Below are positions 5,853 through 18,399 of a DNA stretch of 64,000 nt, piece after piece. Numbering within the stretch: position 1 is the stretch's first letter; each line of letters begins with the position of its first letter. The notes beneath the pieces are model-generated. The model was given only the letters and a program-made list of their open reading frames with translations. It ran no database searches and was not told the DNA's origin. The position numbers and the translations under genes are program-made. Source of the DNA: Pandoraea norimbergensis (GTDB lineage: Bacteria > Pseudomonadota > Gammaproteobacteria > Burkholderiales > Burkholderiaceae). The stretch is from positions 6,076,001 through 6,140,000 of the forward strand of contig NZ_CP013480.3 in NCBI RefSeq assembly GCF_001465545.3. Direction: 5' to 3'.

Positions 5853-6704
5853 TCAGTGATGGTCGTGCGCCTGGCCGATATACACCAGCGTGAGCATCAT
5901 CATGATGAACGCCTGGAGCAACACGATCAGGATGTGGAAAATCGCCCATGCGGTGCCGGCGATGATATGACCGACAAAACCCAGCACCGACGCATCTGCG
6001 CCAAAACTCCAGATACCGCCCAACAGCGCGATCAGCAGGAACACCAGTTCGCCGGCGTACATATTGCCGAACAGTCGCATACCGAGCGACACGGTCTTGG
6101 CACAGAATTCGATCAGGTTGAGCAGCAGGTTCGGGATCCACAGCAGAAAGTGGTTGCCGAACGGTGCCGTGAACAGCTCATGCATGAAACCGCCCGCGCC
6201 CTTGATCTTGAAGCTGTAGTACAGCATCAGAATCAGCACGCCAACGGCGATACCGAGCGTGCCGTTCAAATCGGCCGTCGGGACAATACGATGGTGGGTA
6301 ATGATCGAGCCGAGGCCGACCCAGCCGATGACCTTCGACGGCAGGTCGACGGGCAACAGGTCCAGCGAGTTCATGAGCGCGACCCAGACAAACACGGTCA
6401 GCGCGAGCGGAGCGATGAAGGCACGATTGCCGTGCACGATGCTCTTCGACTGGTCTTCGACCATCTCGACGAGCATTTCGACCGCAGCCTGGAAACGGCC
6501 CGGCACGCCCGAGGTGGCTTTACGAGCGGCCAACCAAAGCACGAAGCAGCCCAGCGCGCCCATCGCGATCGACCAGAACATGGTGTCCCAATTGATGATC
6601 GAGAAGTCGACGATCTTCGTCTGCGTCGAGCTCGCGAGGTTTTGCAGGTGGTGCGAAATGTACTCCGACGGGTTCGGAGCGTGGCTACCGGCTTCTACTG
6701 ACAT
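5853..6704 (-). CDS. atpB: ATP synthase Fo subunit a
   Basis: Stator channel subunit that passes protons to and from the c-ring. I chose the ATG at 6702-6704 ([20 protein letters not shown]), which matches the usual N-terminus of betaproteobacterial AtpB; the frame is open 11 codons further upstream, but that extension is not family-like. The resulting 283 residues contain five to six membrane helices and the essential-arginine helix [22 protein letters not shown]. The C-terminus ends in a His-rich tail. It follows atpI after 67 bp. Confidence 0.96.
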
Positions 6705-8726: not shown

Positions 8727-9626
8727 TTATTCGTCACGAATGCGCGCGAGAATGCCGTCGAGCGCATCGAGGCTGCCGAACTCGATGGTGAGCGCACCGG
8801 CGCCCTTGCGGCCGACCTTGATCTTCACGTTCGAGGCGAGCAGATCCGACAATTCTTCTTCGAGACGCGTCACATCGCGACCGCCCTCTTCCGCCGAACG
8901 GCGACGAATGCCATCGCCTTGCGGCTTGAGCGACGCGTTGACAATGCGCTCGGTGTCGCGCACCGACAGTCGCTTGTTCACCACTTGATTGGCGAGCGTA
9001 ATCTGCGTGGCCGCATCGACGGAGAGCAACGCACGCGCGTGCCCCATATCAAGATCGCCTGCGAGCAGCATCGTCTGCACCGGTTGCGCGAGGTTGAGCA
9101 GGCGCAGCAGATTCGACACAGCACTTCGCGAACGGCCGAGCGATTCAGCGGCCTGTTCATGCGTGTAATTGAATTCACCGAGCAGGCGTTGAATGCCCTG
9201 CGCTTCTTCCAGCGGATTCAGATCTTCGCGCTGAATGTTCTCGATGAGCGCCATCGCGGCAGCGGCTTCATCGGGCACATCGCGCACGAGCACAGGCACT
9301 TCCGACAGACCGGCCATGCGGGCGGCACGGAAGCGCCGTTCGCCAGCAATAATTTCGTACTTCTCACCATCGACACGGCGCACGAGAATCGGCTGCATCA
9401 GCCCTTGCGCGCGAATGCTCGCGGCGAGCTCCTGCAATGCGCCTTCATCCATGCGCGTACGCGGCTGGTACTTGCCCGCCTGCAAGCGGTCGAGCGCCAT
9501 CACCGACGGTGCCCCTTCGGCCGAGGCTTCGTCTGCGCCGTTATGGTTATCGGCGTGTGCGCCGAGCAGCGCTTCGAGGCCGCGGCCCAGGCCCTTCTTT
9601 TTGAGTGCGTTGGTCTTGGTCGCCAT
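8727..9626 (-). CDS. parB: Chromosome-partitioning protein ParB (parS-binding CTPase)
   Basis: ParB loads at parS sites and spreads as a CTP-dependent clamp to segregate the origin region. The 299-residue protein has the standard layout: N-terminal GLGRGLEALLG, the CTP-binding box with GERRFRAARMAG, a helix-turn-helix region (EQAAESLGRSRSAVSNLLRL), a linker, and a C-terminal dimerisation domain. It follows parA with 27 bp between them. Its likely targets are visible in this same window: nine parS-like sites at 12,419-15,302. Confidence 0.97.
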   Translation of the reverse strand: MATKTNALKKKGLGRGLEALLGAHADNHNGADEASAEGAPSVMALDRLQAGKYQPRTRMDEGALQELAASIRAQGLMQPILVRRVDGEKYEIIAGERRFRAARMAGLSEVPVLVRDVPDEAAAAMALIENIQREDLNPLEEAQGIQRLLGEFNYTHEQAAESLGRSRSAVSNLLRLLNLAQPVQTMLLAGDLDMGHARALLSVDAATQITLANQVVNKRLSVRDTERIVNASLKPQGDGIRRRSAEEGGRDVTRLEEELSDLLASNVKIKVGRKGAGALTIEFGSLDALDGILARIRDE

Positions 9627-9653: not shown

Positions 9654-10424
9654 TTACATAGTTTGAATGCGCGCGATCATCTCTGCGCCGAATTGCAGAT
9701 ACGCCTGCGCGCCACGCGATGCGGGGTCGAAGACGACGCCGGGCATGCCGTAACTCGGCGCCTCGGCGAGCCGCACATTGCGCGGAATGATCGCGTTGAA
9801 AACCTTGTCGCCGAAGTGCTGCTTGAGCTGCTCCGAGACTTGTTGTTGCAGCGTGATACGCGGATCGAACATCACGCGCAGCAAGCCGATCACCTTCAGG
9901 TCACGGTTCAGATTCGCGTGCACCTGCTTGATCGTATTAACGAGATCTGAGAGCCCTTCGAGCGCGAAGTACTCGCACTGCATCGGAATGATCACGCCGT
10001 GCGCAGCACACAGGCCATTCAGCGTCAGCAGCGAGAGCGTCGGCGGGCAATCGATGAGGACGAAGTCGTATGCGTCGTCCACTTTCTCGAGTGCCTGCTT
10101 GAGGCGCGTATCACGGTTCTCGAGCGACACCAGCTCCACGTCGGCCCCCGCGAGTTCGCGGTTGGCGGGCAACACGTCGTAGTTACCCGTCTCCGAACGC
10201 TGACGGCTCACGCTCACGTCCGTGCCATCGACCAGCACCTCGTAGACGCTCGTCTCGAGCGCGCCCTTGTCGATGCCGCTGCCCATTGTCGCGTTGCCCT
10301 GCGGATCCAGGTCGACCAACAGGACACGCTGTCCGTGCGACGCCAGACCGGCGGCGAGGTTCACCGTGGTGGTCGTCTTGCCGACGCCGCCCTTCTGATT
10401 GGCCACGCAGAAAATTTTCGCCAT
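9654..10424 (-). CDS. parA: Chromosome-partitioning ATPase ParA
   Basis: A 256-residue Walker-type ATPase that pulls ParB-parS complexes over the nucleoid. The deviant Walker A KGGVGKTT is at residues 11-18, and the Walker A' / B segments LLVDLDPQGNAT and FVLIDCPPTL are present. The length and absence of an N-terminal DNA-binding domain fit the chromosomal (Soj) type rather than a plasmid ParA. It is transcribed in the same direction as mnmG-rsmG-lipocalin upstream, after a 184-bp gap that could hold its own promoter. Confidence 0.97.
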   Translation of the reverse strand: MAKIFCVANQKGGVGKTTTTVNLAAGLASHGQRVLLVDLDPQGNATMGSGIDKGALETSVYEVLVDGTDVSVSRQRSETGNYDVLPANRELAGADVELVSLENRDTRLKQALEKVDDAYDFVLIDCPPTLSLLTLNGLCAAHGVIIPMQCEYFALEGLSDLVNTIKQVHANLNRDLKVIGLLRVMFDPRITLQQQVSEQLKQHFGDKVFNAIIPRNVRLAEAPSYGMPGVVFDPASRGAQAYLQFGAEMIARIQTM

Positions 10425-10608: not shown

Positions 10609-11199
10609 TCAGTTATTGCCGGTGCTGGCTTTCTGGGGCGTCAACACGAGCTTGTCGGTGTCGTAGCCTTGTTTGCGCAACTGCGCGCGCATTTGATTCA
10701 ACGTGTTCTCGTCGATGGTCGGCGTGCGCGACAGGATCCACAGGTACTCGCGGCCCGGCTCTCCGACGGCGGCATACTGATAGTCGCCGTCGAGCACGAT
10801 AACCCAGTAGTTCGCCCAAAGCCAGGGAATCCAGCGCAACCAGTCCGGCGCGAAGGTCACCTTGAAGCGCGCGGTGCCGGTGCCCTGCCCGTCGGTGCGT
10901 GCGAGGCCTGCATCACTCACCCAGGTGCCATCGTCTTTGCGGCACTTGTTCGTGACTTCGATCCGGCCATCGGCGCGCGCTACGTATTCAGCGGTCACGT
11001 CCGACACACATTTTCGCTCGAAGAAATTCGGATAGCGTGCTATTTCGTACCAGGTGCCGACATAACGCGTCTTATCGATCGCCCCGACCGGGCGTACCCG
11101 TGTGGTCAGCGATTCTTGTCCGGTTTGCGCCCAGGCAACGGCGGCGAGCAGCGAAAAACCAACGATCGCAGCACCAATCCAGCGGGTAATTCCGGTCAT
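10609..11199 (-). CDS. Periplasmic lipocalin family protein (Blc-like)
   Basis: A 196-residue protein with a Sec signal peptide (hydrophobic core about residues 8-22, likely cleavage after AWA at residue 24) and the lipocalin signature [17 protein letters not shown]. Bacterial lipocalins such as Blc bind lipids, often lysophospholipids, in the envelope. Unlike Escherichia coli Blc it lacks a lipobox cysteine, so it is probably soluble in the periplasm. Its ATG overlaps the rsmG stop codon by 4 nt (ATGA), so it is translationally coupled to a cytoplasmic rRNA methyltransferase gene, an unexpected partner within the gid-par cluster. Confidence 0.88.
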
Positions 11200-11876
11200 G
11201 CAGCCACCTTCACGCGAAGCAAATGACGCTCGGCGTCGAGGAATGGCACTTGCAGCGGCAAGCGTTCGACCAGCGCGTAACCCGGCGGCAAAGCCAGTTC
11301 ACTCTCGGCGGCGACACCCTTCATAGCCCAGAAGCTGCCTTCGGGCGCCAGCAGATTCTGCCCCAGCGTCACGAAGTCGTTCAGCTCGGCAAAGGCACGC
11401 GACACGATGGCGTCAAAGGCCGCCGGCACTTCCTTGCCGATCACCAGCGACTCCACACGGCCAGTTACGACGGTGAGGTTGGTCAGCTTGAACGTGGCCC
11501 GTGCTTGCGTCAGGAACGCGGTCTTCTTGTGCACGATGTCATTGACCGTCACCTGCCAGTCCGGGCGCACCATGGCCAGCACCACGCCCGGCAACCCGCC
11601 GCCTGAGCCCACGTCAAGTACACGTGAAATCGGCTCACGGTCGAGGCGCGGCAGAATCGAGAGGGAGTCCAGCAGGTGCTTGACGACCATCTGTCGCGGA
11701 TCGCGAATCGAGGTCATCTGCAAAGCGGCATTCCACTTGGCCAGCAACGCCTGAAAATCGAGCAAGCGCACTTGCTGCTCGGGGCTGATCGACAAGCCGA
11801 GTTGTGCGATGCCGTCGGCCAATAGCGTAGCCAGCTCGTTGCCGCCTTGCGCGGCAGTGTTTCTTGAAGCCGTCAT
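11196..11876 (-). CDS. rsmG: 16S rRNA (guanine527-N7)-methyltransferase RsmG
   Basis: Methylates G527 of 16S rRNA using S-adenosylmethionine; the old name is gidB. The 226-residue protein has the SAM-binding loop [12 protein letters not shown] (glycine-rich core at residues 90-97), preceded by [11 protein letters not shown], both typical of RsmG. It follows mnmG by 11 bp, the classic gidA-gidB order near bacterial origins. It overlaps the downstream lipocalin gene by 4 nt. Confidence 0.97.
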
Positions 11877-11887
11877 GTCGTCTCCGG

Positions 11888-13852
11888 TCAGGCGGCGTGC
11901 TGGTCGCCGTCATCGGCGCCCGCACTTGTGTCACCCGACGCGCGACGGCGTCCCAGCCCCTTCTTCAGATGGATCATCAGCAACGAGATCGCCGCCGGTG
12001 TCACCCCGGAGATACGCGACGCTTGCCCCAACGTTTCGGGACGCTGAGCCGCGAGCTTCTGGCGCACTTCTATCGACAGACCCCGCACCTCGTTGTAATC
12101 GATGCTCGCGGGCAGCACGGTGTTCTCATTGGCTTCCTTGCGAACGATCTCGTCGGCCTGACGATCGATGTAGCCTTGATACTTGGCCGCAATCTCGATC
12201 TGTTCACGAATCTGCCCGGCTTGCAGCGGATCGTCGGACAGCGCATTTTCAGGGGCGAGTCGACCGCCCTGCACTGCCATCAGCGCGTCGTAGCTGACTT
12301 CCGGACGACGCAGCAGATCGGCAAGCGAATACTCGTGGTCGATGGCCTTGCCGAGCAACGGCACGGCATCTTCCGCCGGGAATGTCTTGGGATTCACCCA
12401 CGTGGTTTTGAGGCGTTCTGTTTCACGTGAAACAGCATCGCGTTTGCGACAGAAGGCTTCCCAACGAACGTCGTCCACCACACCGAGTTCGCGACCGACT
12501 TCGGTCAGGCGCATGTCGGCATTGTCTTCACGCAGCGACAGGCGGTATTCGGCGCGGCTGGTGAACATGCGATACGGCTCGGACACGCCACGCGTAATCA
12601 GGTCATCCACGAGCACGCCCAGATAGGCCTGATCGCGACGCGGGCACCAGGCTTCGCGGCCCTGCACCTGAAGCGCGGCATTCATACCGGCAAGCAGCCC
12701 CTGTGCCGCGGCTTCTTCGTAACCCGTGGTGCCGTTGATCTGACCGGCAAAGAACAGGCCCGAAATCACACGCGTTTCCAGCGAGCTACGCAGCCCACGC
12801 GGATCGAAGTAGTCGTACTCGATGGCATAGCCGGGACGCAGGATATACGCGTTCTCCATGCCCTTCATCGAGCGGACCAGTTCGAGTTGCACGTCGAAAG
12901 GCAGACTCGTGGAGATGCCGTTCGGATAGAACTCGTTGGTCGTCAGCCCTTCCGGCTCCAGATAGATCTGGTGCGACGTCTTGTCGGCGAAGCGATGAAT
13001 CTTGTCTTCGATCGACGGGCAGTAGCGCGGCCCTACCCCTTCGATCACGCCCGTGTACATCGGCGAGCGGTCGAGCCCCCCACGGATGATGTCGTGCGTG
13101 CGCTCATTGGTATGCGTGACCCAGCACGGCACTTGGCGCGGATGCTGGGCAGCCGAGCCCAAGAACGAGAACACGGGTACCGGATCAAGGTCACCCGGCT
13201 GCTCTTCGAGCACGGAGAAGTCGATTGAACGACCGTCGATACGCGGCGGCGTACCGGTCTTCAAGCGACCTTGCGGGAGTTTCAACTCTTTCAGGCGCGC
13301 CGACAGGCTGATAGCCGCCGGGTCACCGGCGCGACCGCCGACGTAGTTGTTCAAGCCAACGTGAATCTTGCCGTCGAGGAACGTGCCAGCGGTCAGCACC
13401 ACGGCACGAGCGCGGAAGCGCAGCCCAACCTGCGTGATGGCACCGACAACGCGGTCGCCTTCAACGATCAGGTCTTCGACGGCCTGCTGGAACAGCCAGA
13501 GATTCGGCTGATTTTCCAAACGATGACGGATCGCCTGCTTATAGAGAATGCGGTCGGCTTGGGCGCGCGTCGCACGTACGGCCGGCCCTTTCGACGAATT
13601 CAGAATGCGAAACTGGATGCCGCTCTCGTCGGTCGCCGCCGCCATGGCGCCGCCCAGCGCATCGACTTCCTTAACGAGATGGCCCTTGCCAATGCCACCA
13701 ATCGAGGGGTTACAGCTCATCTGACCGAGCGTCTCGATATTGTGGGTAAGCAAAAGGGTTTTACAGCCCATGCGGGCCGAGGCGAGCGCAGCCTCAGTGC
13801 CGGCATGGCCGCCACCCACTACGATCACATCGAACTCGGTTGGATAAAGCAT
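11888..13852 (-). CDS. mnmG: tRNA uridine-34 carboxymethylaminomethyl enzyme MnmG
   Basis: FAD-dependent partner of MnmE in making cmnm5U34 in tRNA anticodons (formerly gidA). I chose the ATG at 13850-13852 ([18 protein letters not shown]), giving 654 residues, the usual family length. The frame is open for another 77 codons upstream, but that stretch translates parS DNA and is not protein-like. The FAD dinucleotide motif GGGHAG is at residues 13-18, with the family signatures [12 protein letters not shown] and [17 protein letters not shown] perfect parS site lies inside the coding sequence (12,419-12,434). Confidence 0.97.
12419..12434 (+). other. parS site 1 (inside mnmG)
   Basis: TGTTTCACGTGAAACA, a perfect 16/16 match to the bacterial parS consensus, located within the mnmG coding sequence. 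It is 1.5 kb from the main cluster. Confidence 0.93.
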
Positions 13853-13900
13853 CGCAATTTTGCCGCGTGCGGCAAACTCTCTGGATTCGGTAATTGCGGA

Positions 13901-13906
13901 ATTATA
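13901..13906 (-). promoter_or_regulatory. Candidate -10 element of the mnmG promoter
   Basis: The minus strand reads TATAAT at 13906-13901, about 50 nt upstream of the mnmG ATG. No convincing -35 hexamer is seen at 16-18 nt spacing. parS-like site 2 (13,941-13,956) lies just upstream of where RNA polymerase would sit. Confidence 0.5.
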
Positions 13907-13940
13907 GCGGTATTGCGATGCATCATTTGTAACCACGCTA

Positions 13941-13956
13941 TGTTTCACGTGGAACG
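13941..13956 (+). other. parS-like site 2
   Basis: TGTTTCACGTGGAACG, 14/16 to the parS consensus, with the CACGTG core intact. It is at the mnmG promoter region. Confidence 0.75.
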
Positions 13957-13983
13957 TGAGTGGAAAACGACGATATTGGAGAC

Positions 13984-13999
13984 TGTTCCACGTGGAACA
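13984..13999 (+). other. parS-like site 3 (perfect palindrome variant)
   Basis: TGTTCCACGTGGAACA is a perfect 16-bp palindrome. It differs from the consensus at the two symmetrical positions 5 and 12. Confidence 0.75.
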
Positions 14000-14082
14000 T
14001 TGGGAAGGTTTGGTGGATTTGAGGAGATATGGCGGTGGATTGCTTGGAGACTGGTTCGTTGAAATGACAGTCACCCCTCTCA

Positions 14083-14098
14083 TGTTTCACGTGAAACA
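14083..14098 (+). other. parS site 4
   Basis: TGTTTCACGTGAAACA, a perfect 16/16 parS match in the gene-free region. Confidence 0.95.
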
Positions 14099-14281
14099 CG
14101 GGGAGTCTAGCGTTCCCGGCGGGCAATCCAGCGTCATTGATCGAGCCCAGTGGGTGTCAGGCCCGTCCGATGACAAACCAAGTTCGCCGGAGAAGCGCCC
14201 TCCCCCGAGTTCGGCGTGCCGTCGACAATGCTCGCGACTAAGGCCAGCGGTAATTGTCCAACCGGTCACGAATGCCCATCA

Positions 14282-14297
14282 CGTTTCACGTGAAACA
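14282..14297 (+). other. parS site 5
   Basis: CGTTTCACGTGAAACA, 15/16 to parS; only the first base differs. Confidence 0.9.
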
Positions 14298-14472
14298 TCG
14301 GAGCGTCGCGCTCCCGGAGGATCAATCCACCGACCGACTCAAAATGAATTCCCCGGATACCAATCCCATCGTCGGCACCGGGCCATCACCAAGCGAAGTC
14401 ATTCAATTCTCCCCATCCATCGCCGTGGCTCCGGCCAACGACAATTGTCGAATCACATCACCGCGCCTTCCA

Positions 14473-14488
14473 TGTTTCACGTGAAACA
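14473..14488 (+). other. parS site 6
   Basis: TGTTTCACGTGAAACA, a perfect 16/16 parS match. Confidence 0.95.
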
Positions 14489-14533
14489 GAGTCCCTCTCT
14501 CCGGACCAATGGCATCTCAGAAATCAAGGCGAG

Positions 14534-14549
14534 AGTTCCACGTGAAACA
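14534..14549 (+). other. parS-like site 7
   Basis: AGTTCCACGTGAAACA. It differs from consensus at position 1 and at position 5, which is degenerate in the Bacillus consensus. Confidence 0.8.
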
Positions 14550-14751
14550 CTGCCCTGAAACCCCAGCGTGATGAGCCACTCGGGAGCCAACCCCGCGCGG
14601 ATCTCAACCTCTGGGCATGTCTCTCGATCTCAAGAGCCTATTCGCGGCGTGCCGGTGCTACCACCCCAATCGCGAGCGCTCCACCGATACCTCCCGCCAA
14701 ATGAACGACTCAATGGCACCCGTCCTGATGAAGTCGTCCACCACCCCACCG

Positions 14752-14767
14752 TGTTTCACGTGAAACG
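14752..14767 (+). other. parS site 8
   Basis: TGTTTCACGTGAAACG, 15/16; only the last base differs. Confidence 0.9.
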
Positions 14768-14975
14768 AAAGCGCTTCTCGACAGGAGCGTCTCAATGCGA
14801 ACACGTCGCGGGGAATCAGAATCCGAAAACCCGTGACACGCGAGATTTGGCGCAAGACCGGAGCGAGACCGATATGCCGCAGGCAGGGGGAATAGCTCGG
14901 CACTTCGATAGCAGCAACAAACTCATGGAACATGCTTTCCCCTCTGCCCTGCGCGGACAAACGCATCCACCCCGG

Positions 14976-14996
14976 CATCCACATCCACATCCACAT
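14976..14996 (+). repeat. Short tandem repeat of CATCCA (3.5 copies)
   Basis: Three and a half copies of the hexamer CATCCA. Each unit junction contains ATCCACA or ATCCACAT, that is 7 of 9 bases of a DnaA box, so the array could act as closely spaced weak DnaA sites (inference). Confidence 0.6.
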
Positions 14997-15130
14997 GAGA
15001 AATACCAAGATGCCGTGTTCCCGAACCCGAGACCGAATTCGAGAATGAAGCACCTACTCCACCCCGGTATCAAATCAAACCGGCCAACACCGTGAATACG
15101 GAAATTCAGAGACACACGACCTGAACATCC

Positions 15131-15160
15131 ATCCAGTAACGTTGCCGTCGATCACTGGAT
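15131..15160. repeat. Inverted repeat ATCCAGT / ACTGGAT in origin region
   Basis: ATCCAGT (15,131-15,137) is followed after 16 nt by its reverse complement ACTGGAT (15,154-15,160). The right arm is also the start of the duplicated 18-mer. Confidence 0.5.
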
Positions 15161-15279
15161 GCAAACACAGGACCGCAGCCACCAAAGATAGCGACGCAAC
15201 AAGACGCAATCACCCAGCGCTCCCCAACTGCGAAATCCACCTCGGAGATTTTCATCTCGACCACTGGATGCAACCACAG
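15153..15279 (+). repeat. Duplicated 18-mer flanking 91 bp
   Basis: CACTGGATGCAAACACAG at 15,153-15,170 recurs as CACTGGATGCAACCACAG at 15,262-15,279, 17 of 18 bases identical. They lie between the parS cluster and the DnaA boxes. No known protein site was recognised. Confidence 0.7.
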
Positions 15280-15286
15280 CACTGCG

Positions 15287-15302
15287 CGTTCCACGTGAAA
15301 CC
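15287..15302 (+). other. parS-like site 9 (weak)
   Basis: CGTTCCACGTGAAACC, 13/16 with the core CACGTGAAAC intact. It is the site closest to the DnaA boxes. Confidence 0.65.
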
Positions 15303-15448: not shown

Positions 15449-15457
15449 TTATCCACA
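15449..15457 (+). other. DnaA box (perfect)
   Basis: TTATCCACA, exact match to the strong DnaA-box consensus. Confidence 0.85.
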
Positions 15458-15501
15458 TCACTCGACACCCACGCAAAACCTCAAACAAGAAATTGCTTTT
15501 C

Positions 15502-15510
15502 TGTGGATAA
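15502..15510 (-). other. DnaA box (perfect)
   Basis: TGTGGATAA on the plus strand, that is TTATCCACA on the minus strand. It is in opposite orientation to the box 45 bp to the left. Confidence 0.85.
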
Positions 15511-15596
15511 CCCTAAGCGACGAATTCACTCGAAAATCGTAAAAATCGCCAAACCCCTTATTGCGGCAGTGCGCCATAGATTTGCGCGTTGCATAA

Positions 15597-15605
15597 CTAT
15601 CCACA
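15597..15605 (+). other. DnaA box (one mismatch)
   Basis: CTATCCACA, one base from TTATCCACA. Confidence 0.65.
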
Positions 15606-15611
15606 AGCAAC

Positions 15612-15620
15612 TGTGAATAA
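15612..15620 (-). other. DnaA box (degenerate consensus match)
   Basis: TGTGAATAA, read on the minus strand as TTATTCACA, which fits TTWTNCACA. Confidence 0.7.
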
Positions 15621-15635
15621 GTGAGTTCTCGTTGT

Positions 15636-15644
15636 CGTGGATAA
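15636..15644 (-). other. DnaA box (one mismatch)
   Basis: CGTGGATAA, read on the minus strand as TTATCCACG, one base from consensus. Confidence 0.65.
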
Positions 15645-15856: not shown

Positions 15857-16603
15857 TCAGGCAGCCTTCTTTGCCAGCCCCAGATACGTCTCGATCACCT
15901 TCGGGTTGCTCGCCAGCTCTTGTGCAGGGCCTTCCAGCGCCAGCTCACCCGTCTCGATCACGTAACCGTAGTCAGCCACCTGCAAGGCCGCCCGGGCATT
16001 CTGCTCGATCAGCAGCGTTGCCACGCCCGTCTTGCGCAAGTCGTTGATGATGTGGAAGATTTCCTTCACGATCAGCGGCGCAAGCCCAAGGCTCGGCTCG
16101 TCGAGCATCAGCAGTTGCGGCTTGGCCATCAACGCGCGGCCCACCGCCAGCATCTGGCGCTCACCGCCCGACAGCGTACCGGCCTGCTGCACGCGGCGCT
16201 CTTTCAGGCGCGGAAACAGCGCGTAGACCACTTCCATCTGATCGAGGAAGTTCTTCTCCCCGGCCTTCTTGCGGCGGTACGCGCCGAGCAGCAGGTTGTC
16301 TTCGACCGTCATCGTCGAGAACAACTCGCGCTTCTCCGGCACCAGACACATGCCGCGCGCCACGCGCGTCTCGATGCTCAGCGCCGACATCTCGTGGCCG
16401 AGATACGCCACGCTGCCGCGGCTCGAACCGTTGTGCGGCAGCGCGCCCATGATCGCGTTGAGCATGCTCGACTTGCCTGCGCCGTTCGGACCGATCACCG
16501 TGACGATCTGACCGGCTTCCACGCGCAGGTGAGCCCCATGTACTGCCTCGACCTTGCCGTAGGCTACCGCCAGGTCCTTGACCTCCAGAATCGCCTCTGC
16601 CAT
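15857..16603 (-). CDS. livF: Branched-chain-type (HAAT) ABC transporter ATP-binding protein LivF, cluster 1
   Basis: A 248-residue ATPase of the Liv/HAAT importer. It has Walker A GPNGAGKS, the signature LSGGERQMLAVGRAL, and Walker B LLMLDEPSLGLAP, all intact, plus the LivF-type C-terminal segment. The ATG at 16,601-16,603 overlaps the stop of livMG (TGATG) and is preceded by GGAGGAG; a GTG one codon earlier is possible. It is the last gene of the livH-livMG-livF operon, which is followed by a terminator. Substrate is uncertain: HAAT systems take branched-chain amino acids, but also amides and aromatic acids. Confidence 0.93.
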   Translation of the reverse strand: MAEAILEVKDLAVAYGKVEAVHGAHLRVEAGQIVTVIGPNGAGKSSMLNAIMGALPHNGSSRGSVAYLGHEMSALSIETRVARGMCLVPEKRELFSTMTVEDNLLLGAYRRKKAGEKNFLDQMEVVYALFPRLKERRVQQAGTLSGGERQMLAVGRALMAKPQLLMLDEPSLGLAPLIVKEIFHIINDLRKTGVATLLIEQNARAALQVADYGYVIETGELALEGPAQELASNPKVIETYLGLAKKAA

Positions 16604-18399
16604 CACTCCACTCCTCCGAGGTACGCCTCGAGCACCGCCGGGTTCTTCTGCACGTCTTCGGGCAGCCCCTCGGCGATCTTGGTGCCGAACTCCATCACCA
16701 CCAGGTGATCGGTCAGGTTCATCACGAAATCCATGTCGTGCTCGACCAGCAGCACGCTCATGCCTTCATCTTTGAGCTTGCGCAGCAAATCGCCCAGCGC
16801 CTGCTTCTCTTTGTAACGCAAGCCAGCGGCCGGCTCGTCGAGCAACAGCAGTGTCGGATCGCACGCCAGTGCCCGCGCAATTTCCAGAATCCGTTGCTGC
16901 CCCAGCGCGAGACTGCCCGCTTCGTCATACATGTGCGCGCCAAGGCCCACACGCTCGATCTGCTTCGCAGCTTCGTGCAGCAGCATGGCCTCTTCATGGC
17001 GGTCCAGACGCAGCACGCTCGACCACACACCGCCCTGCGGACGCCGGCGCAGGCCGTTCTTATCACGCAGATACGCGCCGATCGCCACGTTCTCCAGCAC
17101 GCTCATATGCGGCATCAAGCGCACGTGCTGGAAGGTCCGGCCGATACCGCGCTTGACGATCTCACGCGACGGCAGACGATCGATCCGCTCGCCGAGGAAC
17201 GAAATCTCACCGCGCGTGGCCTGCAACACCCCGGTCACGAGATTGAACGTGGTCGACTTGCCGGCGCCGTTCGGACCGATCAGACCGACGATTTCACCGG
17301 CCTTCACTTCGAACGACACATCGTTGACCGCCACCAGCCCGCCGAACTCCTTGCGCGCCTTCTCCAGCTTGAGCACCACTTCGCCCACGGCCGGCTTGGC
17401 ACGATGGCCCAACGCGTCCGCTTGCTCAGGGGCCCGGGCCACACGGCGTGCCGGGAAGATCTTCGCGAAGAACGGCCACACGCCATCGCGTGCGTATTGC
17501 AGCAGCAACACCAGCAGCACCCCGAAGACGATCGTCTCGAAGTTACCGTTAGCACCCAGCAACACCGGCAGGATGTTTTGCAGGTAGTCCTTGAGCACCG
17601 TCAGGATCGCGGCCCCCAGCACAGCGCCCCAGACGTGCGAGACGCCGCCCACCACCGCCATGAACAGGTACTCGATGCCGTGATTCAGGTTGAACGGCGT
17701 CGGGTTCACGGCACGTTGCAAGTGCGCGTACAGCCAGCCCGAAATCGCGGCGAGCACGGCGGCGTAGACGAACACCACCACCTTCATCCACGCGGTGTTC
17801 ACGCCCATGGCTTCGGCCATCACGCCGCCACCCTTGAGCGCGCGAATCGCACGGCCCTGACGCGAATCCAGCAGGTTCTTGACCGACACCACCGCCAGCA
17901 CCACGACCACCCAGATCAGATAGAACATCTGACGCCCGCTCGCCAATTCGACGCCGAACACGTTGATGGTCGGAATGTCGTTCAGGCCGTCGTACTTGCC
18001 GAGGAACTCAAGGTTGCCGAACAGGTAGTACAGCGCCAAGCCCCACGCGATCGTACCGAGCGGCAGGAAGTGGCCCGACAGACGCATGGTGATCGCGCCG
18101 ATCACGAGCGCCGCAGCGGCCGTGATGACGATGCCGACCACCAGACCGAGCCACGGCGAAGCGCCGTAGGCCGTCGTCAGATAAGCCGTCGCATAGGCAC
18201 CCAGACCGACGAACGCGGCCTGACCGAACGACGTCATGCCGGCCACACCCGTGAGCAATACCAGACCGATGGCCACGATGCTGTAGAGGCCGATGTAATT
18301 GAGCAGCGTCACCCAGTATTCGGGCAGACGTACCGGCGCAGGCAGTACCGGCAACACGGCCAGTAGCACCAGAAAAATCAGGAAGTATTTGTTTTTCAT
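16603..18399 (-). CDS. Fused LivM permease - LivG ATPase, cluster 1
   Basis: A 598-residue fusion of two Liv transporter parts. Residues about 1-310 are a LivM permease with 8-10 membrane helices and the motif GLVLLTGVAGMTSFGQAAF. A charged linker (about 315-340) leads to a LivG ATPase with Walker A GPNGAGKST (Lys381), a signature region LALGQQR in place of LSGGQ, and Walker B LLLLDEPAAGL. The fusion ties one ATPase covalently to one permease of the heterodimer. It lies between livH and livF with short gaps or overlaps on both sides. Such fusions occur in Burkholderiales, so this is not likely to be an assembly artefact. Confidence 0.93.
   Translation of the reverse strand: MKNKYFLIFLVLLAVLPVLPAPVRLPEYWVTLLNYIGLYSIVAIGLVLLTGVAGMTSFGQAAFVGLGAYATAYLTTAYGASPWLGLVVGIVITAAAALVIGAITMRLSGHFLPLGTIAWGLALYYLFGNLEFLGKYDGLNDIPTINVFGVELASGRQMFYLIWVVVVLAVVSVKNLLDSRQGRAIRALKGGGVMAEAMGVNTAWMKVVVFVYAAVLAAISGWLYAHLQRAVNPTPFNLNHGIEYLFMAVVGGVSHVWGAVLGAAILTVLKDYLQNILPVLLGANGNFETIVFGVLLVLLLQYARDGVWPFFAKIFPARRVARAPEQADALGHRAKPAVGEVVLKLEKARKEFGGLVAVNDVSFEVKAGEIVGLIGPNGAGKSTTFNLVTGVLQATRGEISFLGERIDRLPSREIVKRGIGRTFQHVRLMPHMSVLENVAIGAYLRDKNGLRRRPQGGVWSSVLRLDRHEEAMLLHEAAKQIERVGLGAHMYDEAGSLALGQQRILEIARALACDPTLLLLDEPAAGLRYKEKQALGDLLRKLKDEGMSVLLVEHDMDFVMNLTDHLVVMEFGTKIAEGLPEDVQKNPAVLEAYLGGVE

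Follow-up and report, generated by a model that had tools for sequence, protein, structure and literature searches.

A cluster of nine parS-like sites lies beside parA and parB in the chromosome of Pandoraea norimbergensis. The stretch of DNA that we analyzed (the window, 64 kb) covers positions 6,076,001-6,140,000 of the single 6,167,370-bp contig of this genome (G000). A minus-strand series of parB, parA, a lipocalin-like open reading frame (ORF), rsmG, and mnmG is followed by a 2-kb gap and a livF-type gene. In the window, nine sites with at most three mismatches from TGTTTCACGTGAAACA were found between 12,419 and 15,302, compared to a mean of 0.26 and a maximum of 3 in dinucleotide shuffles of the window (n=100). 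One is within mnmG and eight are inside 1,362 bp between mnmG (5' end at 13,853) and livF (3' end at 15,857), in a gap that looks non-coding. A preliminary description of this DNA had listed nine such sites, eight of them in about 1.4 kb of gene-free DNA, and both statements held. It had also graded the sites as three perfect, three with one or two changes, and three weaker. The three perfect sites were confirmed; the other six are two sites with one mismatch, three with two, and one with three.

The sites are confined to one place in the genome. The 6.17-Mb genome has nine exact matches to GTTYCACGTGRAAC and these are the nine sites in the window, indicating that no GTTYCACGTGRAAC site is present elsewhere. 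With up to three mismatches to TGTTTCACGTGAAACA there were 20 sites in the whole genome, and all eight with at most two mismatches are within the window. Twelve have three mismatches (a reversed control pattern gave 8); only the one at 15,287 has the GTTYCACGTGRAAC form, and the remaining 11 are changed at other positions. No equally good sites were spread over the chromosome and, as proposed in the preliminary description, the sites look like those of the neighboring parAB genes. Variation among the nine is limited to positions 1, 5 (T>C), 12 (A>G), and 16 of the 16-mer. The nine sites are 54-57 kb from the candidate oriC described below, or about 77-80 kb from dnaA. Three marks of a ParABS centromere were found together: 16-bp palindromes of the TGTTTCACGTGAAACA type, adjacent parA and parB genes, and concentration of the sites near the origin. 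Judged by sequence, the nine sites are very probably the chromosomal centromere of this bacterium and the predicted place of ParB loading.

Table 1. Features of the parAB-mnmG-livF region (window coordinates).
Feature	Coordinates	Strand	Basis or remark
parB (ParB_N, HTH_ParB, ParB_C)	8727..9626	-	Pfam
parA (AAA_31)	9654..10424	-	Pfam
Lipocalin-like ORF between rsmG and parA	10609-11199	-	family name by eye
rsmG (GidB)	11196..11876	-	Pfam
mnmG (GIDA)	11888..13853	-	Pfam; start is the ATG of MLYPTEF, chosen by eye
parS, perfect 16-mer, inside mnmG	12419..12434	.	pattern search; identical in all 32 genomes of the genus
TATAAT, possible -10 box of mnmG	13901..13906	-	by eye; about 35 bp from first parS of pair
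parS variant, positions 12 and 16 changed; first of pair, upstream of mnmG	13941..13956	.	pattern search
parS variant, positions 5 and 12 changed; second of pair	13984..13999	.	pattern search
parS, perfect	14083..14098	.	pattern search
parS, position 1 changed	14282..14297	.	pattern search
parS, perfect	14473..14488	.	pattern search
parS variant, positions 1 and 5 changed	14534..14549	.	pattern search
parS, position 16 changed	14752..14767	.	pattern search
Distal parS variant, positions 1, 5, and 16 changed	15287..15302	.	recurrent at the same place in the genus
DnaA-box module, five 9-mers with at most one mismatch from TTATCCACA, two perfect	15449..15644	.	pattern search; starts at 15,449, 15,502, 15,597, 15,612, and 15,636 (five in 196 bp)
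livF-type ABC transporter ATPase gene, distal border of gap	15857..16606	-	ABC_tran over cut-off

The substitutions found in parS sites across the genus fall mostly at positions that ParB is reported to tolerate. We compared 32 Pandoraea genomes, one of them reduced (1.2 Mb). In the alignment of mnmG from all 32, the internal parS site lies in the longest invariant run, 18 columns versus 8 for the next. The mnmG-livF gaps, contig ends included, contained 224 sites with at most four mismatches (mean of 1.56 and maximum of 5 in shuffled gaps, n=50). These sites had 321 substitutions, of which 292 were at positions 1, 5, 12, or 16, and T>C or A>G accounted for 77 of 79 substitutions at positions 5 and 12. 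This pattern agrees with the specificity of ParBc1 of Burkholderia cenocepacia, for which surface plasmon resonance imaging indicated that symmetrical changes are tolerated at these same four positions (PMC5450999, in the portion available). No combination like the triple change at 15,287 was found among the ParBc1 variants described in that portion. The preliminary description had suggested that graded quality of the sites sets the strength of ParB loading. That suggestion is weakly founded, because the variants are changed only at tolerated positions.

The sites have been kept while the DNA between them changed. In the sister species G022 and G015, the start of mnmG and livF are 95-97% identical to those of the window, and the proximal part of the gap around the pair of sites at 13941 and 13984 is 98-99% identical. 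The two sites of this pair are 43 bp apart, and most of the genus has such a pair, at a distance of 41-43 bp; CGTTCCACGTGAAACC-type sites are close to the livF end in many relatives. The inner spacers cannot be aligned even with these sister species: 34-35% of columns match (48% of ungapped columns), about the level of shuffled spacers. Nevertheless, at 34% inner-spacer identity between G000 and G022, eight and seven sites are kept. Because the spacers have changed and the sites remain, we conclude that several of the sites are kept by selection.

The density of sites is high for the family, consistent with the view that such an array is unusual. At least one site with at most one mismatch was present in 389 of 398 family genomes, whereas at least five were present in 20 of the 32 Pandoraea genomes and in only 3 of the 366 others. 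Around parB in 80 named loci of other Burkholderiales (including Paraburkholderia, Burkholderia, Caballeronia, Cupriavidus, and Ralstonia), some of them too short to reach mnmG, the number of sites with at most two mismatches was 0 (5 loci), 1 (3), 2 (39), 3 (20), or 4 (13). Many of these loci carry one site at a distance matching that of the mnmG-internal site, which is probably an ancestral site of the family. Within Pandoraea, the number of GTTYCACGTGRAAC sites ranges from 1 to 14 per genome at one orthologous place.

The three genomes outside the genus with at least five sites differ in how the sites are arranged. G169 has five, four of them spaced 34-41 bp apart. G325 has eight, in two groups of four that are 4.1 Mb apart, perhaps because the locus was duplicated. 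G247, from another genus of the family, has six by this count and seven parS-like sites in a tandem array upstream of mnmG (370 bp x 7.6; L249:2980-5822); six of the seven have a core changed to CATGTG or CATATG. The sites in G247 and G169 indicate that parS has grown in tandem on separate occasions, in some cases with cores that are not expected to bind well, which favors duplication pressure as the source of parS copies and selection as the filter.

Two features went beyond the preliminary description: tandem repeat units in the relatives and a conserved DnaA-box module. Using Tandem Repeats Finder, we found a tandem array with a unit of 184-279 bp, typically with one parS site each, in the mnmG-livF gap of 17 of the 32 genomes. 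Period and copy number vary, with for example 234 bp x 5.2 in G011, 225 x 4.9 in G006, 225 x 4.8 in G031, 228 x 6.6 in G026, 266 x 4.4 in G027, 279 x 3.3 in G009, and, in G021, 189 x 5.3 with the distal site type. The weakest array is that of G016 (184 x 1.9, one site). G028 has a 38-bp repeat in place of the parS-unit array, and no gap array was detected in the other 14 genomes, including that of the window. Six of the 32 assemblies break inside the gap (G002, G004, G006, G008, G011, and G029), as expected because of the repeats; these were read as contig ends, so their site counts may double or miss sites. G007 and G017 have no livF border on the same contig.

Units within an array are more alike than units of different species. 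Neighboring units inside arrays are often 0.8-0.99 identical (16-mer excluded) and those at array edges 0.44-0.67, compared to shuffled means of 0.49-0.54. Of 145 units cut from the gaps, 95 from 22 genomes form one similarity component. For 70 of the 94 units from genomes that contributed two or more to this component, the best match was in the same genome, versus 4.1 with shuffled labels. This is a mark of concerted evolution, and recent shared ancestry gives the same signal. In the weakly repetitive arrays (G024, G005, and G013), the spacers are near random to each other and the parS sites persist. The species of the window may be at a late stage, its spacers altered and its sites retained.

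Apart from parS, the unit is best conserved in an imperfect inverted repeat of about 85 bp that has a conserved loop. Covariation was analyzed with 39 copies picked by hand from 233 profile hits, which include weak and reverse-strand ones. Stem positions were paired in 93.4% of cells, and 13 of 19 pairs had changes on both sides, compared to 7.5 in shuffles (0 of 500 reached 13). The number of further pair types was not unusual (25 versus 22.9 in shuffles; 71 of 500). Sliding the partner along the stem-loop lowered pairing to 24-44%, a control that favors a structure derived from the same alignment. A covariance model matched (E<=0.01) in 27 of the 32 genomes, with a single weak copy in each of G000 (at 1,474,807), G015, G019, and G022, which make up the subclade of the window. 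A profile of the whole unit matched the centromere in 23 genomes, which form one group in a midpoint-rooted tree (support 93/95; G017 is a long branch), and had no centromere match in the subclade of the window.

The stem-loop is also found away from the centromere. G031, G021, and G027 have many copies outside the array, some in small tandem groups. We examined 18 dispersed loci (L231-L248; 7 from G031, 6 from G021, 4 from G027, and 1 from G000), and 17 had no parS-like site with at most four mismatches. In nine loci the elements are all clear of stop-to-stop frames of at least 100 codons; in the other nine an element overlaps such a frame. Six overlapping frames were scanned: five had no Pfam match and one had a match beyond the element. 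As dispersed copies are mostly without parS, the stem-loop behaves as a repetitive extragenic palindromic (REP)-like repeat caught in the amplification of parS, and it is possible that it represents a REP-type family of the genus. Comparison with Rfam gave four matches, found in four loci and all below their gathering scores, and identity with a known RNA was rejected.

Based on these results, we think it quite probable (roughly 85%) that the nine sites are the canonical ParABS parS set of the chromosome, with a copy number that is specific to the clade and arose by local tandem duplication, and with several sites kept by selection. ParB dimers would bind the parS palindromes, load as cytidine triphosphate (CTP)-dependent clamps, and spread over the flanking DNA, and ParA would move these complexes so that the region segregates early after replication from the oriC about 54 kb away. 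Within the genus, a single clade would have multiplied the parS site upstream of mnmG by local tandem duplication, the unit also carrying the REP-like stem-loop in 23 of 27 clade genomes. In about 17 genomes of the clade, unequal recombination may homogenize the copies of each species in the manner of a satellite; in the species of the window the inner spacers would then have been replaced or have decayed, leaving the parS sites. The most likely benefit would be a larger or more robust load of ParB at one place. Such a satellite-like array would be a new variant of the canonical centromere, and repeat growth of this kind is unusual for a bacterial chromosome.

Several observations weigh against this interpretation. 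No tandem period, stem-loop, or match to the unit profile was detected in the array of the window itself, and its spacer-to-spacer identities of 0.58 and 0.54 compare to a shuffled mean of 0.51; the tandem origin of this array is therefore deduced from the relatives, and its four-species subclade may have gained sites in another way. Spacer replacement was not uniform, because the distal 500 bp or so retain 62% identity to G022 and G015, and the inner parts of these two are 86% identical to each other. Not every parS copy is protected, since 29 of the 321 substitutions are outside the four tolerated positions, and the substitution counts are not independent because they treat related copies as separate; the sites were also selected by similarity. 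That the nine sites are ParB targets is itself a prediction from the DNA. Finally, copy number need not matter: in Pseudomonas aeruginosa a single parS is reportedly enough, going by the title of a paper. The same follows from Corynebacterium glutamicum, in which a single parS is nearly enough (PMC7083940, in excerpt).

In a recast form of the preliminary suggestion, the number of sites, and not their grading, might set the ParB load or DNA condensation, the clade having crossed a threshold from about two to at least five sites. We hold this only tentatively. Genomes that have the DnaA-box module have 4-13 gap sites (at most four mismatches) plus one in mnmG, and the sites were kept while the inner spacers changed. 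The available portions of two papers describe a condensation force in magnetic tweezers that rises with the number of parS sites, with a minimum of 5-7 (PMC8299390), and, for C. glutamicum, clusters that contain more ParB when ten sites are present instead of one (PMC7083940). However, the threshold of 5-7 is tied by the authors, in that same portion, to the minimum force of their assay (PMC8299390), the sufficiency of single sites described above argues against a need for dose, and copy number varies widely between close species, as drift predicts.

Drift of this kind could also be the whole explanation. Replication slippage or unequal crossing-over, aided by the palindromic repeat, would multiply the parS upstream of mnmG, and the extra copies would be tolerated and unneeded. 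This is possible, short of likely. Species differ in period and copy number although the units of any one species resemble each other, the stem-loop makes small tandem groups elsewhere without parS, and the array of G247, which has no match to the stem-loop, looks as if it was amplified without need, with six of its seven sites changed in the core. In contrast, the clade of the window and G024, G005, and G013 keep parS sites among near-random spacers, and the substitutions avoid positions critical for ParB.

The centromere that we favor, a canonical parS set expanded by duplication, resembles some known systems and differs from them in its repeats. Dense clusters as such are known: Myxococcus xanthus has 22 parS sites in 3 kb (PMC3899335, in excerpt) and C. 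glutamicum has 10 in 35 kb, 73 kb from oriC (PMC7083940, in excerpt). As in these, many sites are grouped near parAB or the origin; unlike these, copy number varies within one genus, and the Pandoraea relatives have units with a stem-loop and species-specific periods (likeness of units was compared within Pandoraea only). The 16-mer and the parAB neighborhood are the same as in Burkholderiaceae centromeres with two to four sites, such as that of B. cenocepacia chromosome 1. Tandem units that each carry a site for the partition protein are also found in plasmid centromeres, including sopC of F and, reportedly, that of pSM19035. The locus described here is chromosomal, with chromosomal-type ParB and parS, and its unit is about five times the 43-bp unit of sopC. 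Like REP sequences and bacterial interspersed mosaic elements, the stem-loops of the relatives are short imperfect palindromes, both dispersed and in small tandem groups; unlike them, they are co-amplified with parS in relatives and absent from the window's own locus. In the open-licence literature we found no published work on parS, chromosome segregation, or REP sequences in Pandoraea.

Because 1 to 14 sites occur at one orthologous place, the genus lends itself to comparing sister species in copy number, unit spacing, and ParB load. This bears on the question of why parS is single in some chromosomes and present in more than twenty copies in others. The locus is also a prokaryotic example of centromere repeats that resemble one another within species and differ between them, like eukaryotic satellites.

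The parB translation contains a GERRFRA box, which we take to have a role in CTP binding. A promoter scan did not report the TATAAT sequence upstream of mnmG. The name livF for the ABC transporter ATPase gene is our assumption; its product scored 24.8 for BCA_ABC_TP_C, just below the Pfam cut-off of 25.5. A gene weakly similar to FabK is between mnmG and livF only in G030, G025, and G023 (L190:937-2202; 81.7 bits versus a cut-off of 453), with best matches elsewhere in the genus that are 66-68% identical and at other places. It is not ancestral, and we rejected the idea that the gap is the scar of a lost gene.

The DnaA-box module is at the livF end of the gap, downstream of livF. Similar geometry was found in all 27 genomes with at least four gap sites; the five others (G028, G030, G025, G023, and G017), which carry one to three gap sites, lack it. 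Module identity was 78-94% over 139-367 bp where blastn aligned, and about 140 bp were strongly conserved in an alignment of 22 of the 27 genomes (rows L163 and L173 are shortened by the chosen coordinates). Blastn with the module gave no match in the 80 family loci, plasmids, or phages, and the gap had no match in plasmids; a plasmid or phage source was therefore rejected.

The likeliest oriC is elsewhere, about 54 kb from the parS array. GC skew does not turn at the module; the minima are 55-61 kb away in all three genomes analyzed (G000, G020, and G021), so we rejected the parS gap as the main oriC. These minima are 2-8 kb beyond another conserved DnaA-box region (6,145,680-6,146,030 in G000; L012:5680-6030) that has four DnaA boxes and an AT-rich stretch, about 22 kb from dnaA. 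The region was matched in 31 of the 32 genomes, 27 near full length at 85% identity or more and 4 diverged or partial. The minimum in G000 is shallow and stays almost flat until some 65 kb beyond the start of the record. In G020 and G021, another cluster of four boxes is found about 1 kb upstream of dnaA; oriC might therefore lie at that position.

A composite, satellite-like centromere, in which parS, the REP-like hairpin, and a gained DnaA-box module hold ParB above a condensation threshold and hold or tune DnaA, would tie replication control to segregation, and we consider it unlikely. It is also unlikely that the locus is a replication element, a second or former oriC or a DnaA-titrating site, with parS as companion. 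Such an element would fit five DnaA boxes in 196 bp, the strict association with at least four gap sites, and the 94-96% identity of the module to those of G022 and G015 where inner spacers cannot be aligned; in Escherichia coli, moreover, mnmG neighbors oriC. Aside from the skew, however, the association rests on one branch of the tree (27 genomes, support 98/97), so that array and module reflect a single event and may be linked by coincidence. The module shows no significant similarity to the candidate oriC (of 300 shuffles, 9 and 21 reached the scores of the two strands), which also led us to reject it as a copy of that region. Clusters of at least three DnaA boxes are not rare, being present in 8 of the 80 family loci; in L080 (Pusillimonas; L080:6231-6496), three DnaA-box-like 9-mers from 6,231 are right beside parS sites at 6,298, 6,428, and 6,496.

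Other DnaA-related sequences were seen in G000. Six DnaA-box-like 9-mers are on one strand within about 230 bp at 128,596-128,827. Five open frames of 273 amino acids (14,027; 557,700; 1,167,427; 3,397,662; and 5,716,548) have identical DnaA-type ATPase domain scores and are probably copies of one insertion-sequence helper gene.

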